Source of the DNA: an uncultured Lachnospiraceae bacterium
Lineage (GTDB): Bacteria > Bacillota > Clostridia > Lachnospirales > Lachnospiraceae
DNA: 64,000 nucleotides
Assembly (NCBI GenBank): GCA_947174505.1
Contig: CAMWJF010000006.1
Coordinates: forward strand, 47,302-111,301
Reading direction: 5' to 3'
The translations under genes were made by a program, and so were the position numbers. Under the pieces are notes generated by a model, which did not search any database, was not told where the DNA came from, and worked only from the letters and a program-made list of their open reading frames with translations. Position 1 is the first letter of the stretch. Each line of letters starts with the position of its first letter. Positions 2,577 to 27,200 of the stretch are shown piece after piece.

Positions 2577-4082
2577 ATGTCCAGATTAATTCATGTGGGT
2601 AATTGTATATCTGTACTATTTTTCTATTTAGTTTGCATAGTTGCGTTGAAAAGTATGATTTCTGAATCTTATTTAGCGGCAATTGTTTTGCTTCCTGCTC
2701 TAGTTGGTTTTGGGAAATTATATAGAAAATATAAAAAAACAGACATGGACTTACGATTGGACGAAGAAATAAAAAAATATCGGGTACTAATATGGTGCTG
2801 TTTACAAACACTTTCCATAATCGTAATGGTGATTATGACGGTTAATCTCCGCGTAAAATTTTCGTGGGATTGGGGAAAGCTCATTTCAACTGCAGTATCT
2901 AAGGTAGTTACTGGTGAATGGAGTGCTATGGAATATTATAGCCGTTATCCGAATAATCAGGCGTGGCTATTATGTTTGACAGCATATTTCAAGTTTATTC
3001 GCCTGATGATTCCAGTGGCAACTGAAAAAACTTTCTATGTAGCAGCTATTCTAGTAAGTATAGCTTTTACGCAAATAACACTTTGGTTGGTGTATCAGAC
3101 GGCTAGAATACTCTTTAGTGAGAAAAGAGCACTTTTAGTCGGTATGATAGGTTTGATATGTCTTCCCTTTTATTTATATGCTCAATTTGCATATACAGAT
3201 ACTATCAGTATGATGATGGTCATTTTTGCAGCTTATATCTACTTAAAATTGAAAAGTTCAAAAGGGAATGGGAACTGTATTGGGCTTGGTTTCTTACTTG
3301 TAGTCACATCAGTCCTTATTTTTAATATAAAGATACTTGGCTTTATTGCTATAATTGCTATGGTTCTTGATAGTATTTTGAACTGTGATAATTATAGGAA
3401 GCTTATTTTCATATTAATAAGTTGCTTTGTACTTTGGGGAGCAGGAACTAAAATATCTGTTATGGTAATAGAAAACAAGTTACCGATGACAGATGAAATG
3501 GCTGATCGATATGAGTTTTCATGGACTCATTGGGTAATGATGGGAATGAACAAAAAAGGGGGATATTCGGAGGATGATGTTGCTTTTTCAAAAAGCGTTG
3601 TAAGTTTTGAAGAAAGGCAGGAGGCGGAAATATCAGAGCTAAAACGGCGTATCACGGGTTACGGAGTAAAAGGAACATTAAATCATCTTTTCAATACCAA
3701 GCTTTCAAGGACATGGGGGAAAAGTTGCTTAGCTGGAGATGACTATATTCATAGGAAACCATATTCTGAAAACAGTTTATGGCAAAGGCTGTTTGGGGTA
3801 GGAGAAGATTTGCATTGGATTGTTTTGACTTATTCATGGATTTTCCATATTCTGATGATTTTGGGGATGTTTCTTGAGGGAATTTATTCTTTAAAAGAGG
3901 ATGCAGGAAGTCGGAAGTTTATGATGTTGCGTTATACGGTATTAGGAGTAGGTATTTTTCTTACATTATGGGAGTGTAATAGCCGTTATCTTTTGCCATT
4001 TTTGCCAGTAATGATATTGTTATCAAGCAGAGGGTGGGAACTGGTTATTTATAAGTGTAGCGTCTGGAGGTTGTATGAATGA
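2577..4082 (+). CDS. Polytopic membrane protein, GT39/mannosyltransferase-like
   Basis: 501 aa, multiple TM segments, 'YSRYPNNQAWLL' typical of membrane glycosyltransferases; stop overlaps next start (ATGA). Confidence 0.55.
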   Translation: MSRLIHVGNCISVLFFYLVCIVALKSMISESYLAAIVLLPALVGFGKLYRKYKKTDMDLRLDEEIKKYRVLIWCCLQTLSIIVMVIMTVNLRVKFSWDWGKLISTAVSKVVTGEWSAMEYYSRYPNNQAWLLCLTAYFKFIRLMIPVATEKTFYVAAILVSIAFTQITLWLVYQTARILFSEKRALLVGMIGLICLPFYLYAQFAYTDTISMMMVIFAAYIYLKLKSSKGNGNCIGLGFLLVVTSVLIFNIKILGFIAIIAMVLDSILNCDNYRKLIFILISCFVLWGAGTKISVMVIENKLPMTDEMADRYEFSWTHWVMMGMNKKGGYSEDDVAFSKSVVSFEERQEAEISELKRRITGYGVKGTLNHLFNTKLSRTWGKSCLAGDDYIHRKPYSENSLWQRLFGVGEDLHWIVLTYSWIFHILMILGMFLEGIYSLKEDAGSRKFMMLRYTVLGVGIFLTLWECNSRYLLPFLPVMILLSSRGWELVIYKCSVWRLYE

Positions 4083-5110
4083 AAAAAATTTTAGGGGGGG
4101 GGGCATATGCTCAATCTCAATCCAAACGGATTTTTCTGTATGAAAACGTGCGTTTTGCGCTAATTGTATTAGTTGTTATTGGACATGCTATTGATTTGAA
4201 CACAGCACAGTCAAAAGTGTATCGGGGTATTTTTCTATGGATTTATTCTTTTCATATGCCAGTATTCTTGTTTTTGTCGGGAATGTTTCACAAAAACGAA
4301 AAAATAATTGCAAAAATGCTGGGATATATATGCATAGGGTTTTGCTTGAAAATATTTTATTTTATAGAAAACATGCTATTATTTGAAAACGCTTCCTTTT
4401 CACTTCTTTCAGATGGAGGAATACCCTGGTATATGTTTGTACTCGCAATGTATATTGTGGTTTCGTATGGCTTAAGAAACATAGATAAAAGGTTTCTTTT
4501 CATATTTTCTGTTATGCTAGCCTGTTTTGTCGGATATGATGCAGCTATAGGCGACTTCCTGTATCTTTCGCGTGCGGTTGTATTTTATCCGTTTTTCCTA
4601 TTGGGAGAGATGACGAATGCAGAGGCGCTGGCTAAAGCTGCAGAAAATAAGAGAATAAAGGGAATGGCTTTTGTGGTGTTGATAGTTTGGGGAATAGCTT
4701 GTATTGCCCATGTAGATCAGCTGTATTTTTTGCGGGCTCTTTTCACGGGGCGTAGTTCTTTTAACGTAAATGAAATATTTAGCAGGTGGGGATGTATATT
4801 CCGCATAATATGTTATATGATCAGCGTGATCATTGGATTTTCTGTAATTTGCATTATGCCAAACCGATCTGTTCCTGTAATCACTTTGGTTGGGAGCCGC
4901 ACGTTGCAGGTTTATTTCTGGCATTACTTTGTGATTGCTATTTTAGACAAAGTGGGAATAGATGATTTCTTTATGACGTTTTTGGCAGGAAGGCTGATAT
5001 GGATTTTGTGCGCCGTCTTTCTTGTGGCCGTTTTGAGCTTAAGGCCGTTTGCGTTTCCGATGGGATATATAATGAAATCGTGTAGAAGTGTATCACATAC
5101 CAGACATTAG
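4079..5110 (+). CDS. Acyltransferase-3 family membrane protein with G10 tract in codons 6-9
   Basis: 'RFALIVLVVIGHAIDLN...SFHMPVFLFLSGMF'; RBS GGAGG at 4066-4070; ORF open only at the present G-tract length. Confidence 0.8.
   Translation: MKKILGGGAYAQSQSKRIFLYENVRFALIVLVVIGHAIDLNTAQSKVYRGIFLWIYSFHMPVFLFLSGMFHKNEKIIAKMLGYICIGFCLKIFYFIENMLLFENASFSLLSDGGIPWYMFVLAMYIVVSYGLRNIDKRFLFIFSVMLACFVGYDAAIGDFLYLSRAVVFYPFFLLGEMTNAEALAKAAENKRIKGMAFVVLIVWGIACIAHVDQLYFLRALFTGRSSFNVNEIFSRWGCIFRIICYMISVIIGFSVICIMPNRSVPVITLVGSRTLQVYFWHYFVIAILDKVGIDDFFMTFLAGRLIWILCAVFLVAVLSLRPFAFPMGYIMKSCRSVSHTRH
4094..4103 (+). repeat. Homopolymeric G10 tract inside the acyltransferase 5' coding region
   Basis: ATG AAA AAA ATT TTA GGG GGG GGG GCA; counted directly. 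Confidence 0.97.
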
Positions 5111-14635: not shown

Positions 14636-15652
14636 GTGACTATGGATTACAGAGATGAAATGGGAAAATCAAATATTATAATCTATACAACAGAGGATGG
14701 TTTGTCTAAGATCGAAACAACTTTTGATGGGGATACTGTGTGGCTGTCTATTGACCAAATGGCAGAACTATTTCAGAGAGATAAATCAACAATTTCAAGG
14801 CATATTAAAAATATTTATTCAGAAGAAGAACTTGTGCAGGAAGCAACTGTTGCATATTTTGCAACAGTTCAAAATGAAGGAAACAGGCAGGTAGAACGCA
14901 GCATTTGTTATTATAATCTCGATGTAATCATCTCTGTCGGCTATCGTGTAAAATCAAAACGCGGCACACAGTTCAGGATATGGGCAACCGGAGTTTTGAA
15001 AGAGTTTATGCGTAAAGGTTTTGCACTGGATGATGAACGTCTGAAAAACTTAGGCGGCGGTGGATATTTTAAGGAACTGCTTGAACGGATCAGAGACATT
15101 CGTGCATCTGAAAAGGTATTTTACAGACAGATTTTGGAAATTTATGCCACAAGCATTGACTATGATCCAATAGCGGAAATATCCATTCAGTTTTTTCAGA
15201 AGGTTCAGAACAAAATTCATTATGCCATTCATGGGCAGACGGCGGCGGAGGTTATTTATACAAGAGCGGATGCGGAAAAGGAATTTATGGGGCTTACCAC
15301 ATTTGCAGGGAACCAGCCGACTTTGCGGGAAGCTGTTATTGCCAAAAACTATCTGAATGAAAAAGAACTTCGTGCAATGGGGCAGCTTGTGTCGGGATAT
15401 TTGGATTTTGCAGAGCGTCAGGCAGAACGGGAACAGACTATGACCATGAAAGATTGGGCGAAGCACTTAGACCGGATTTTGACAATGAGCGGCGAACAGT
15501 TATTGTCAGGAAATGGAAGTGTGACGCATAAGCAGGCGGTGGAAAAAGCAACTGGGGAATATAAGAAATATAAAGAGCGTACTTTAAGTGATGTGGAACA
15601 AGACTATTTAAACTCAATAAAAATATTGGGTAAAAAGTCAGATAAAGAATGA
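14636..15652 (+). CDS. RhuM-family protein
   Basis: 'TVWLSIDQMAELFQRDKSTISRHIKNIY...YYNLDVIISVGYRVKSKRGTQFRIWAT' hallmark RhuM sequence. Confidence 0.9.
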   Translation: MTMDYRDEMGKSNIIIYTTEDGLSKIETTFDGDTVWLSIDQMAELFQRDKSTISRHIKNIYSEEELVQEATVAYFATVQNEGNRQVERSICYYNLDVIISVGYRVKSKRGTQFRIWATGVLKEFMRKGFALDDERLKNLGGGGYFKELLERIRDIRASEKVFYRQILEIYATSIDYDPIAEISIQFFQKVQNKIHYAIHGQTAAEVIYTRADAEKEFMGLTTFAGNQPTLREAVIAKNYLNEKELRAMGQLVSGYLDFAERQAEREQTMTMKDWAKHLDRILTMSGEQLLSGNGSVTHKQAVEKATGEYKKYKERTLSDVEQDYLNSIKILGKKSDKE

Positions 15653-15729
15653 GAATTTACAGATTACGAAAAGAATATGGTTATCAAAATGTAAAAGTGC
15701 AACGGGCGTTGCACAAATGGAGAGATGAT

Positions 15730-17421
15730 ATGCACAGCGAGAAAATAAAGGTTTACACATATACAAGAGTATCTACAGCCATGCAGACAGACGGTTACTC
15801 CTTGGATGCGCAGAAAGCCAGAATGAAAGCGTATGCCGACTATAATGATTATGAAATTGTCGGTACATATGAGGATGCAGAAAAATCTGGAAAGTCCATT
15901 GAGGGGCGAATAGAATTTAACCGCATGATGGAGGATATCAAGTCAGGGAAAGACGGCATTTCCTTTGTTCTTGTTTTTAAGTTATCCAGATTTGGCAGAA
16001 ATGCGGCAGACGTACTTTCTGCATTGCAGGTTATGCAGGACTTTGGGGTAAATCTGATCTGCGTGGAAGATGGCATTGATTCTTCAAAGGATGCAGGCAA
16101 ATTGATGATTTCTGTCCTGTCGGCGGTTGCCGAGATTGAACGGGAGAATATTCGTGTACAGACAATGGAGGGGCGTATTCAGAAAGCCCGTGAGGGAAAA
16201 TGGAACGGCGGATTTGCGCCATATGGTTATCAACTGATAGATGGCAAACTTCAGATTAACGAAGAAGAAGCAAAAGCTGTCCGTACAATTTTTGAACAGT
16301 ATGTGAAAACAGACATTGGCGCTAACGGTGTTGCAAAATATCTTGAAAACCACGGCATCCATAAAATACAGCGGCAGAATGGGAAAAATCCTCTTTTTGA
16401 TGCGCACTTGGTTCGCCTTATTCTGAAAAATCCGGTATATTGCGGGAAAATTGCTTATGGACGCAGAAAGACAGAAAAGGTTCACGGAACACGGAATGAG
16501 TATCATCTTGTAGAGCAGGATAATTATATTCTGGTGGACGGACAGCATGATGCGATTATTGAGGAAGATGTTTGGCAGGCGGCACAGGTCAAACTTATTT
16601 CACAGGCAAAGAAATATGAACATATAAATAGAGGGAAGGACACCAAAACACACCTTCTTTCCGGTATTGTAAAATGTCCGGTCTGCGGAGCAGGCATGTA
16701 TGGAAATAAGAGTATTAAGCGCAAAAAGGATGGAACGAAATACAAGGATTTTTATTACTATGGCTGTAAGCATAGGACCATGACGCGTGGACATAAGTGT
16801 GATTATAAAAAGCAGATACGGGAGGAACTATTGGACGATGCGGTGGCGGAAGTCATTGTAAAGTTAGTTGGCAATCCTAAGTTTGCGGCAATGATGCAGG
16901 AAAAGATCAACTGCAAAGTGGATACTGTCACAATAGACGGAGAACTTGCAGATTTTGAAAAGCAGTTGTGGCAATATTATGCAGTCAAGCTAAAACTGGC
17001 GGAGGAAATTGATTCCCTTGATCCGGATGACAGACATTATATCAAACGAAAAGCAGACCTTGATGACCGCCTTTATCGAATGTATGATAAGATAGAAAAT
17101 GTGGAAACACAACTTATTGAAACGAGGGCAAAGAAGCAGGCAATTGAAGCTGAGAAGCTAACGGGAGATAATATCTATAAAGTGTTGATTTATTTTGAAA
17201 AACTGTATGCTGTGATGAATGAGATAGAACGGCGGCAGTTTATGGAGGCGTTAATTTCTGAGATACAGATTTATGAGGACAGAAAACCCAATGGACAGTG
17301 GCTGAAGTCTATTAAATTTAAGCTTCCAATTATTGAGGAAGATATGGATTTGAGTTTGGAAGATGATAAACACGTCGAGGTAATAATAATGATGCAGTAT
17401 TGTGGAAAAGAGAAGAATTAA
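15730..17421 (+). CDS. Large serine recombinase
   Basis: 'YTRVSTAMQTDGYSLDAQ', 'VFKLSRFGRNAADVL', 'SAVAEIERENI', Recombinase domain, zinc-ribbon 'CPVCGAGMYG', coiled coil. Confidence 0.92.
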   Translation: MHSEKIKVYTYTRVSTAMQTDGYSLDAQKARMKAYADYNDYEIVGTYEDAEKSGKSIEGRIEFNRMMEDIKSGKDGISFVLVFKLSRFGRNAADVLSALQVMQDFGVNLICVEDGIDSSKDAGKLMISVLSAVAEIERENIRVQTMEGRIQKAREGKWNGGFAPYGYQLIDGKLQINEEEAKAVRTIFEQYVKTDIGANGVAKYLENHGIHKIQRQNGKNPLFDAHLVRLILKNPVYCGKIAYGRRKTEKVHGTRNEYHLVEQDNYILVDGQHDAIIEEDVWQAAQVKLISQAKKYEHINRGKDTKTHLLSGIVKCPVCGAGMYGNKSIKRKKDGTKYKDFYYYGCKHRTMTRGHKCDYKKQIREELLDDAVAEVIVKLVGNPKFAAMMQEKINCKVDTVTIDGELADFEKQLWQYYAVKLKLAEEIDSLDPDDRHYIKRKADLDDRLYRMYDKIENVETQLIETRAKKQAIEAEKLTGDNIYKVLIYFEKLYAVMNEIERRQFMEALISEIQIYEDRKPNGQWLKSIKFKLPIIEEDMDLSLEDDKHVEVIIMMQYCGKEKN

Positions 17422-23966: not shown

Positions 23967-24180
23967 ACCATGTAGACAACATCATACAAACCAGATTATG
24001 TTATGGATTAATTAGTGTCTGCTGATTGAGCGAATATTTGCATACTCCTTCATTTATATTTTCCCCATATTGGAACAGATACAATACAAAAGGGTGTAAA
24101 GTATCCGCTTCCGAATCTTAAACAGATTCGTCACGAATACGAAAAAGTGAATAAAAATTTTAAAAGACACGTAAAATTCC

Positions 24181-24208
24181 TTGCTATTTTAAGGGGGGGG
24201 GGTATAAT
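24181..24208 (+). promoter_or_regulatory. Predicted promoter with a G10 tract in the -35/-10 spacer
   Basis: TTGCTA (24181-24186), 16-nt spacer ending in G10 (24193-24202), TATAAT (24203-24208). Confidence 0.7.
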
Positions 24209-24215
24209 GGTATTA

Positions 24216-24242
24216 CGTGTTTTTTGATGCGCAAAAAACACG
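24216..24242 (+). other. Perfect 11-bp inverted repeat (5-nt loop) at the predicted 5' end of the transcript
   Basis: CGTGTTTTTTG atgcg CAAAAAACACG. Confidence 0.9.
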
Positions 24243-24277
24243 GTAGCAGACAAATTTTTAGAAAGAGAGGACAGAAA

Positions 24278-27200
24278 ATGGGTAGGACGAAAAAGCTGTA
24301 TCTGGCCAAAAGAATGCTGGCTATGATACTTGCAGCTGCTATGTCAATCACTATGGTACCCCAGACGGTGTTCGCAGCACCCGCTGGCGATACCGCTGTG
24401 GAAGATATAGTAGATGCTGCAGCAGAAGGAAACGGCGATGTGGATACGCCGGAAAATGAAGACGGATCGGAGGATACGGGAGACATCGTGTCGGACGGTG
24501 CTGCAGCAGATGATGCAGATGACGGCGCATCGGGCGTCGGCGACGTGAAAGATACGGACGGCACTGCGGACGCTGCAAATAATGACGCGGATGATGTCAT
24601 GACCGACGGCGATGTTGAAAAAACAAATAAGGAGCCGGTCGATGGTGGAAACGCGGAAGTAAAGAATGAGCCGAACGCGGAGGGCGATACGTCCGCAGCG
24701 GTCTATGAGATCAGCGTTGATGACATGGAGACAGAGGCGGTCTATGATGGATACACGCCGTTTGATCCGGACAGTGCTGTGCTGAAAAAGACGGAGAACG
24801 GTGAAACTACAGTCGTGACTGGTGTAACGCTGACATCTTCATGGAAAGTACAGGGCGGGGATGGAAATTTTACCGCGCTGACAGGCGAACCGGTAAACGT
24901 GGGTGTCTATGAGTTGACTCTGACTTGCGCGGCGGTAGCTAATGTACATGCAGAGACTGTTAGGTGTGAGATCAAGAAGGCGCCCCTTACTGTCAGGGCG
25001 ACAGCCACTGCGAAACCAGGTGACAAAGCGGATAAAGCGAATGTTACGGTGGCGGTTTCTGGTGTAGAACCGGCAGAGGGCGACTCGTTCGGTTGGACGA
25101 CCGACGATATCGCGCTGGAAGTTAAAGGCGTAAGAGAGGCGTTTGGCTCTTCTCTTACGGCGGATGATGTGCTGAAAGAGAATGGCGATTATGTAGTGGA
25201 TGTTACGCCTTCCCTTAAGGCGGATGCTGCTGAGGCTGTAAAAGAGGCTGCAAAAAATTATACGTTTGATGATTTTACGGCGGATGTCGCGATGGCGGAG
25301 TTGGCTGAGACAGAGATTGAGGTCACTCTTACGGAGAAGTGGAAAGAAACAAATGCAGTAACGCTTCACGTATATGACGGGGCGGAGGCGGCGGTTCCGG
25401 CGCTTACTGTGGATTATACCTATGTAGTTAAGTATTTGGACGATACGGGAGAGTGGAAGATAATAGATGGCGCCGAGGCAGTCGGAGAGTGGGAAGCATA
25501 CACCGGCAGCGAAGTGGATGGAAACGGCAAGGTAAAGGCTCCGACTGATGCGGGCGAGTATACATACATCCTTAACTATGAGGACAAAAATGGCAAGTAT
25601 GCGAAAAGTCAGGCTGAAATTACCGTTGTGATCGATCCTGCGCCGGTAACGGTTGAGCTTGCAAACGACACGACGAAGGAGCTTACGGTTCCGGCAGGCA
25701 CACTTATGACAAAAGTGCTGTCACAGGTAAAGTATAAGGCGACATCCAAGAACCGTAGTGGTGCGGCGGTTACGATTGACGCGAAAAAGAATCATATCTG
25801 GGGTACCGGTTATGACGATAAGAACGTAAGCCAGATTTATGAGCCGGCGTTTACGCTTCAGGTAAAGGACGGGGACGCATGGAAGGATATCAGTGACGCT
25901 GCTTACAGAATGGAAGGCGGTAAGGAGTACCGCGTGATCTATGATGGCAAGAAGGCGATCTATAACTCGGACGGCACCTATGCACATAGAACGGATATCA
26001 ATTCCGGCCTGGATGAAAACGGGGAAGAGATCAATGGTGTAGATGCTAACTATATTACCGATAAGACGCCTACTGCGGACGCCAATGCCTTGAAAGTCGT
26101 GGCGCAGGCGGGTGTCGAGATGGAGTGGGATCTGACAGCCCTGCTGGCTGATGGTAAGGCGAACGAGAAACTTGGCAAAGATGCGGTTGCAAAAGATTAT
26201 GACGATAAGGCCCTCTATGAGAAGAAGGCAGATTATAAGAATAAAGTAAAGCTGAAGGGGGCGGGCAAAACGCTCGATGCGGTCGGCAGTGACTTTACCT
26301 ATACATGGTATAAGAATACTGCGGCAGATGACCTTTTGGACATAGAGATTGCGGATCAGAATAAGGCGAACGGTTTCGCGTATGATGACTATGAGCAGTC
26401 CTGGGGTTCTCCGAGTAGTATCGCCCCGACCAATGCGGGTGTTTATAAGCTGGAAATTATGTATGAGGATAACACCGACGACGATACCTTCTACTATGTC
26501 AAGGAAGGCAAAGCGGCTGAGGTGTATTTTGTCATCAACAAGGTGCAGCTTGAAATCGTGCCGGAGGGTACGTATGAGGCATTGGAAGGACGTACGCCTA
26601 GAGAGTTTTTTGTACAGGAGAAAAAAATAGACGACCTCAACAAGGCGTATAAAGTGTTGAAAGACGGAAATGCCTACACGTTCCCGGAAAGTCTTGGAGA
26701 AGTAGTGCCTCAGTGGGGCGTACTGGAGAACATAGCGGGCGAGTCAGGAGTAGACACCACATGGTATCCTGAAAATTCTGAGGACATTGGGTTCAGTACC
26801 GGGACAGGTTATAGCTATGATATTCAGGCTCGGGCACTGGGACGCCGTTATTATGAGAATGGTGAATATGACGGGTTCTTCAGCACAGTTAAGATTCGTA
26901 ATAACTATACGCTTTATAAAAGTGAAATCAAGGTGGCGGAGGATGGCGGAAAGAATCGCGCATATCGCGATGATACGCTTTTGAGTGGTAAGGCTGCCCT
27001 TAAAATAAATCCTGTGGGTACGACCAGGCTGGAGCTTGTGGCGAAAGCGCCTCTGGCAGCGTATGAAAAGACTTATAACGGCAAAGCGCTCACCAGAGCG
27101 GAAGTGAAACCCGAGGAGGATTATACACTCACGGCAAACGGACAGCCGGTAGAGGATCCTGGCATAGAGTATATGTGCGTAAATACAGAGACCGGTGACT

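Follow-up and report, generated by a model that had tools for sequence, protein, structure and literature searches.

The promoter and gene at the locus

The stretch of DNA analyzed here (the window; 64,000 nucleotides, nt) derives from an uncultured Lachnospiraceae bacterium (GenBank assembly GCA_947174505.1, contig CAMWJF010000006.1, positions 47,302 to 111,301, forward strand) and encodes a giant secreted protein downstream of a promoter whose -35/-10 spacer contains a G10 tract (Table 1). A sequence-only reading had described this layout as TTGCTA, a 16-nt spacer ending in G10, and a perfect TATAAT. The coordinates were confirmed on re-reading, with a spacer at 24187-24202 whose final 10 nt are all G, and an independent promoter scan returned the identical promoter (10/12 consensus matches, spacer 16). 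Transcription is predicted to start near 24215. As expected of a phase-variable promoter of the type known from Neisseria meningitidis porA, a slippage-prone homopolymer (at least 8 nt) thus lies between the -35 and -10 elements.

The most likely start of the giant open reading frame (ORF) is the ATG at 24278, which is preceded by a GAGAGGA Shine-Dalgarno sequence and yields 2,699 amino acids (aa); the ORF lister gives an alternative TTG start at 24224 (2,717 aa). The protein has a signal peptide, after which come a long acidic linker with predicted disorder and then beta-sandwich domains. A Big_2-like domain scores just below the Pfam cut-off, and a Foldseek search with the N-terminal model matched S-layer and other immunoglobulin (Ig)-like domains, with low global template-modeling scores. 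No LPXTG-type anchor was seen on reading the C-terminal sequence, and no relatives of solved structure were found by sequence. With its signal peptide and Ig-like domains, the product is of the surface or secreted kind on which porA-type switches act.

Table 1. Coordinates of the promoter, its flanking elements and the giant gene in the window
Feature	Position	Strand	Description and basis
-35 box	24181..24186	+	TTGCTA, 4/6 match to TTGACA; sequence and promoter scan
Spacer portion without G	24187..24192	+	TTTTAA, 6 nt (7-10 nt in most relatives)
G10 tract	24193..24202	+	Proposed slipping element; position conserved, length variable in homologues
-10 box	24203..24208	+	TATAAT; sequence and promoter scan
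Imperfect inverted repeat flanking the promoter	24162..24225		Arms 24162-24174 and 24213-24225, 13 nt, 92%, 38 nt apart
11-bp hairpin at the predicted mRNA 5' end	24216..24242	+	z-score -1.9 against shuffles
Shine-Dalgarno-like GAGAGGA	24265..24271	+	Read directly from the sequence
Giant secreted protein, 2,699 aa	24278..32377	+	Signal peptide, acidic linker predicted disordered, beta-sandwich domains

A family search with the N-terminal 441 aa as the query gave 29 hits, spread over 18 of the 78 genomes examined in the genus. Three were left out of the promoter comparison, two because they lack the N-terminus (L177 and L179) and one because the contig ends at the promoter region (L186). Among the 26 homologues with a readable upstream region, 23, counting the window itself, carry a G7-G13 tract that abuts a -10-like hexamer or lies no more than 2 bases from it, some 50-140 nt upstream of where the protein match begins; the three without a tract (L180, L181 and L185) are weak family matches. 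Homologues carry TTGCTT, TTGCCT, TTGATT or TTGACA at the -35 position. Tract position is thus conserved among relatives and tract length is variable, again as in a porA-type switch. The promoter and gene are retained as a unit while their neighbors change, with a Fic gene upstream in the window and a chemotaxis-receptor-like ORF in the homologous locus of genome G015. Spacer length could be compared in 21 family members: 18 or 19 nt was found in 15 of them (seven and eight, respectively), 17 nt in two, 20, 21 and 22 nt in one each, and 16 nt in the window only. A paralogue in the same genome starts at C6:155 (G000:C6:1-1512; L025, L186); its promoter region coincides with the contig end and with low-complexity sequence made up of C and A only.

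Poly-G tracts and promoters in the genome and lineage

Long G tracts exceed chance in this genome. From homopolymer runs in 244 kb of its sequence, in which G/C runs fall about six-fold per added base, the extrapolated genome-wide expectation is 7.7 runs of G8, 1.3 of G9, 0.23 of G10 and 0.04 of G11; after exclusion of G/C-rich low-complexity sequence at contig ends, the observed counts were 1, 5, 14 and 4, respectively, with one additional G12. Runs of at least G10 therefore number 19 against about 0.3 expected, and because run lengths peak at 10, the opposite of a random decay, the excess cannot be attributed to chance. Contig ends lie within 100 nt of 4 of 25 tracts (0.18 expected), which would fit assembly breaking at variable tracts. 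Several long tracts fall within coding sequence, a pattern shared with genomes rich in slippage-prone loci.

The promoter layout recurs in the same way. The pattern GGGGGGGGTANNAT, a G tract immediately followed by TANNAT, has 5 matches in this genome (0 for the reversed pattern) and 86 across 37 same-genus genomes (6 for the reversed pattern). A search for the full layout, TTGACN{6,13}G8N{0,2}TANNAT, which allows spacers of up to 22 nt, was likewise controlled with the reversed pattern; the window promoter, with TTGCT, falls outside it and is uncounted in the totals. Within the genus, 67 matches were found in 31 of 78 genomes (control, 1), and within the order, 53 matches in 40 of 392 genomes from 25 genera (control, 0). 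Two genomes of this genus, one of them the source of the window, are included in the order count, and each of the two lists counts one place twice through overlapping -10 readings. A 399-genome sample of the phylum added 7 sites in 6 further genomes (control, 1), so the layout is rare in the rest of the phylum.

Among 122 collected promoters, tracts of G9 prevail (50), followed by G10 (33), G11 (22) and G8 (15), and spacers of 19 nt (52) are followed by those of 18 nt (21), 16 nt (14) and 20 nt (12). Because the pattern permits spacers of up to 22 nt, the fall-off past 19-20 nt is not imposed by the search. Compensation between the G and non-G parts of the spacer showed a weak correlation (r -0.18), on which we do not rely.

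The downstream genes point to secreted products. Signal-peptide-like proteins account for 78 of 112 downstream proteins and 30 of 156 background ORFs (p = 9e-17), an approximate ratio that depends on a simple and crude signal-peptide rule, a background drawn from this genome only, and the separate counting of related genes; the 112-protein set is also enriched for the giant family, as some sites were found through the giant-protein search. The excess is also visible by eye among the order-wide sites. By single-linkage clustering, 40 of the 112 fall into one cluster, composed mostly of large secreted proteins. Elsewhere in the same genome (L165:1153-7680; G000:C10), TTGACA-N19(G10)-TAGAAT lies upstream of a gene for a 2,030-aa secreted BspA-like protein with leucine-rich and PARCEL repeats. 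In our best reading, the giant-protein promoter is one of many promoters with a poly-G spacer that occur across the genus and the order, mostly ahead of genes for secreted products.

Tract-length variation, the proposed switch and its alternatives

The best evidence for length change comes from a pair of loci in two species-level genomes (L073 in G025 and L112 in G016), where 2,990 aligned nt contain no mismatch and a single gap, G11 versus G10. Two such genomes matching over 3 kb may reflect cross-binning of one strain or recent transfer; under both readings, the difference lies in the tract. The -35 element at this locus is weak (TTGTCC); the pair thus speaks more for an unstable tract than for the spacer mechanism. 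The tract (G016:C45, G025:C18) lies between dnaJ and the start of a capsule operon, with a CpsB/CapC gene and a Wzz-like chain-length gene, and the locus is a candidate for a phase-variable capsule. Other length differences with retained flanks are G11/G13 (L178/L188), G10/G9/G9 (L085/L202/L238) and G11/G9 (L258/L259). L227 matches the G015 locus exactly across the 1,400 nt compared, and the contig scan that yielded it seems to have drawn mostly on assemblies already in the set.

Taken together, the conserved position and variable length of the tract, the enrichment over controls, the enrichment of secreted products and the L073/L112 pair strongly support a poly-G spacer switch. Judged from these comparisons, the promoter is very likely a phase-variable one of the housekeeping-sigma type, with the G10 tract as its hypermutable element and a porA-like slipped-strand mechanism. 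Mispairing within the tract would alter the -35/-10 spacing, and from this we infer changes in transcription of the giant-protein gene; a clonal population would then mix cells of high, low and no expression. Slippage in living cells, like its transcriptional effect, is our deduction from sequence.

The usual spacer optimum is 17 nt, and the sequence-only reading had accordingly suggested that a one-base gain (G11) gives the ON state. The porA-like layout of the switch is supported by the comparative evidence; this ON assignment is doubtful, as spacers peak sharply at 19 nt in the collected promoters and at 18-19 nt in the giant family. The window spacer is 2-3 bases short of the family norm, and its allele is thus probably weak or OFF; the ON state may be G12-G13 rather than G11. 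The family mode suggests that one or two more bases are required when the spacer is poly-G. Poly-G DNA leans toward the A-form, with a smaller rise and a smaller twist, and this tendency could account for the longer requirement. Alternatively, the assembled alleles may mostly be OFF states.

Several observations weigh against a switch. An assembly error in one of the two genomes could have produced the L073/L112 difference, assembled homopolymer lengths can be wrong in general, and contigs may also end at tracts where G runs were poorly sequenced. In the window promoter, the -35 element has only four of six consensus bases, and the spacer is the shortest in its family. Many ortholog sets keep a single tract length, mostly G9, at 82-95% flank identity; this shared length may be an equilibrium length or mark a stable element. 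Moreover, a full-length MutS is present, so any slippage occurs despite it; loss of mismatch repair as a driver is rejected on this ground, MutS alone having been examined.

The uniform ortholog sets, together with the sharp 19-nt spacer mode, are what would be expected if the tract served normal regulated transcription, either as a stiff and stable spacer or by contacting a regulator, with its length held near G9-G10 and the spacer at 18-19 nt, and if length changes were rare and had no switching function. We regard this as unlikely, as tracts span G7 to G13 within one gene family, the L073/L112 locus differs in its tract and nowhere else, and long G tracts are also in excess within coding sequence, where they cannot serve as promoter spacers. 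That the G run is itself a sequencing or assembly artefact is barely credible: G/C-rich low-complexity junk does occur at some contig ends of this assembly (the C6 start, C13 end and C29 start), but the sequence around the tract is unique, many genomes have a tract at the orthologous position, and the reversed-pattern controls are near zero, although an error of one base in the exact lengths is possible. Conservation at orthologous positions thus leads us to reject it.

Equally improbable is an invertible promoter, in which the inverted repeat would be a recombination site and the intervening segment would flip. In its favor are the imperfect arms, 38 nt apart, their covariation in the close homologue G062 (CACGTAA/TTACGTG versus CACGCAA/TTGCGTG), and the presence in the window, about 7 kb upstream, of a gene for a serine recombinase. 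All 23 homologous promoters, however, have one orientation, the arms are not kept in the other homologues and are lost in several, and the segment is far shorter than known invertible promoters. Inversion, which calls for conserved repeats and both orientations, is therefore rejected. The recombinase gene, a large one, follows a RhuM-family gene (window 14636-17421), and the two are probably part of a mobile element. The inverted repeat is a possible operator and the hairpin a possible mRNA stabilizer; the slipped-strand switch proposed here stands without either. No tandem repeats were found near the locus, a search for structured leader RNA in Rfam gave only sub-threshold, chance-like matches, and no copy of the exact window promoter was found in viral contigs.

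Tracts that appear to lie in coding sequence deserve separate mention. G9-G11 tracts of this kind occur at L040, L044, L059, L063 and L066 (G000), some of them in Gly-rich linkers that follow a lipobox or signal peptide, and are possible frameshift switches. A second G10 in the window (4094-4103) occupies codons 6-9 of an acyltransferase ORF (Acyl_transf_3; window 4075-5110). With G10, this ORF is open from the ATG at 4079 and closed from the ATG at 4075; a one-base slip would shift the frame, making it a candidate translational switch.

Probable lineage-wide use and comparison with known systems

Lachnospiraceae are among the dominant gut bacteria, and slippage phase variation is known mainly from pathogens of mucosal surfaces, Neisseria and Campylobacter among them. 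On balance, we favor the view that Lachnospiraceae and related families possess a lineage-wide phase-variable repertoire of a single architecture (TTGAC, 7-10 nt, G8-G11, TANNAT). Its optimum would be moved to 18-19 nt by poly-G geometry, and it would permit independent random switching of giant secreted proteins, lipoproteins and capsule operons, the giant family being almost obligately so controlled. If poly-G promoters switch, surfaces would differ from cell to cell within clonal gut populations, with bearing on phage resistance, immunoglobulin A targeting, adhesion and strain-level metagenomics. The claim lends itself to a direct test, since read sets already available allow tract lengths to be scored. 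The slippage mechanism is already known; in the literature searched, of which coverage was incomplete, we came across no account of poly-G spacers in Lachnospiraceae promoters, of their lineage-wide use or of the near-obligate link to the giant family.

The closest parallel is porA of N. meningitidis, where a poly-G tract likewise lies in the -35/-10 spacer and its length sets expression, with 11G giving high, 10G two-fold lower and 9G 13-fold lower surface expression (PMC3639595); this promoter is also described in PMC7864442. The present promoters differ from it in phylum and gene, and in a spacer mode of 18-19 nt across the lineage, known from sequence alone. In the gut commensal Bifidobacterium breve UCC2003, replication slippage in G-tracts controls surface structures, namely pili (PMC9187656). 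G-tracts in promoter spacers are also mentioned there, but the tracts studied in this member of the Actinomycetota lie in coding sequence and act by frameshift (PMC9187656). In Treponema pallidum, poly-G length affects transcription of tprL, which encodes a putative surface protein; unlike the tract described here, that of tprL shares bases with the -10 region, and a spacer mechanism was ruled out in that study (PMC7864442).
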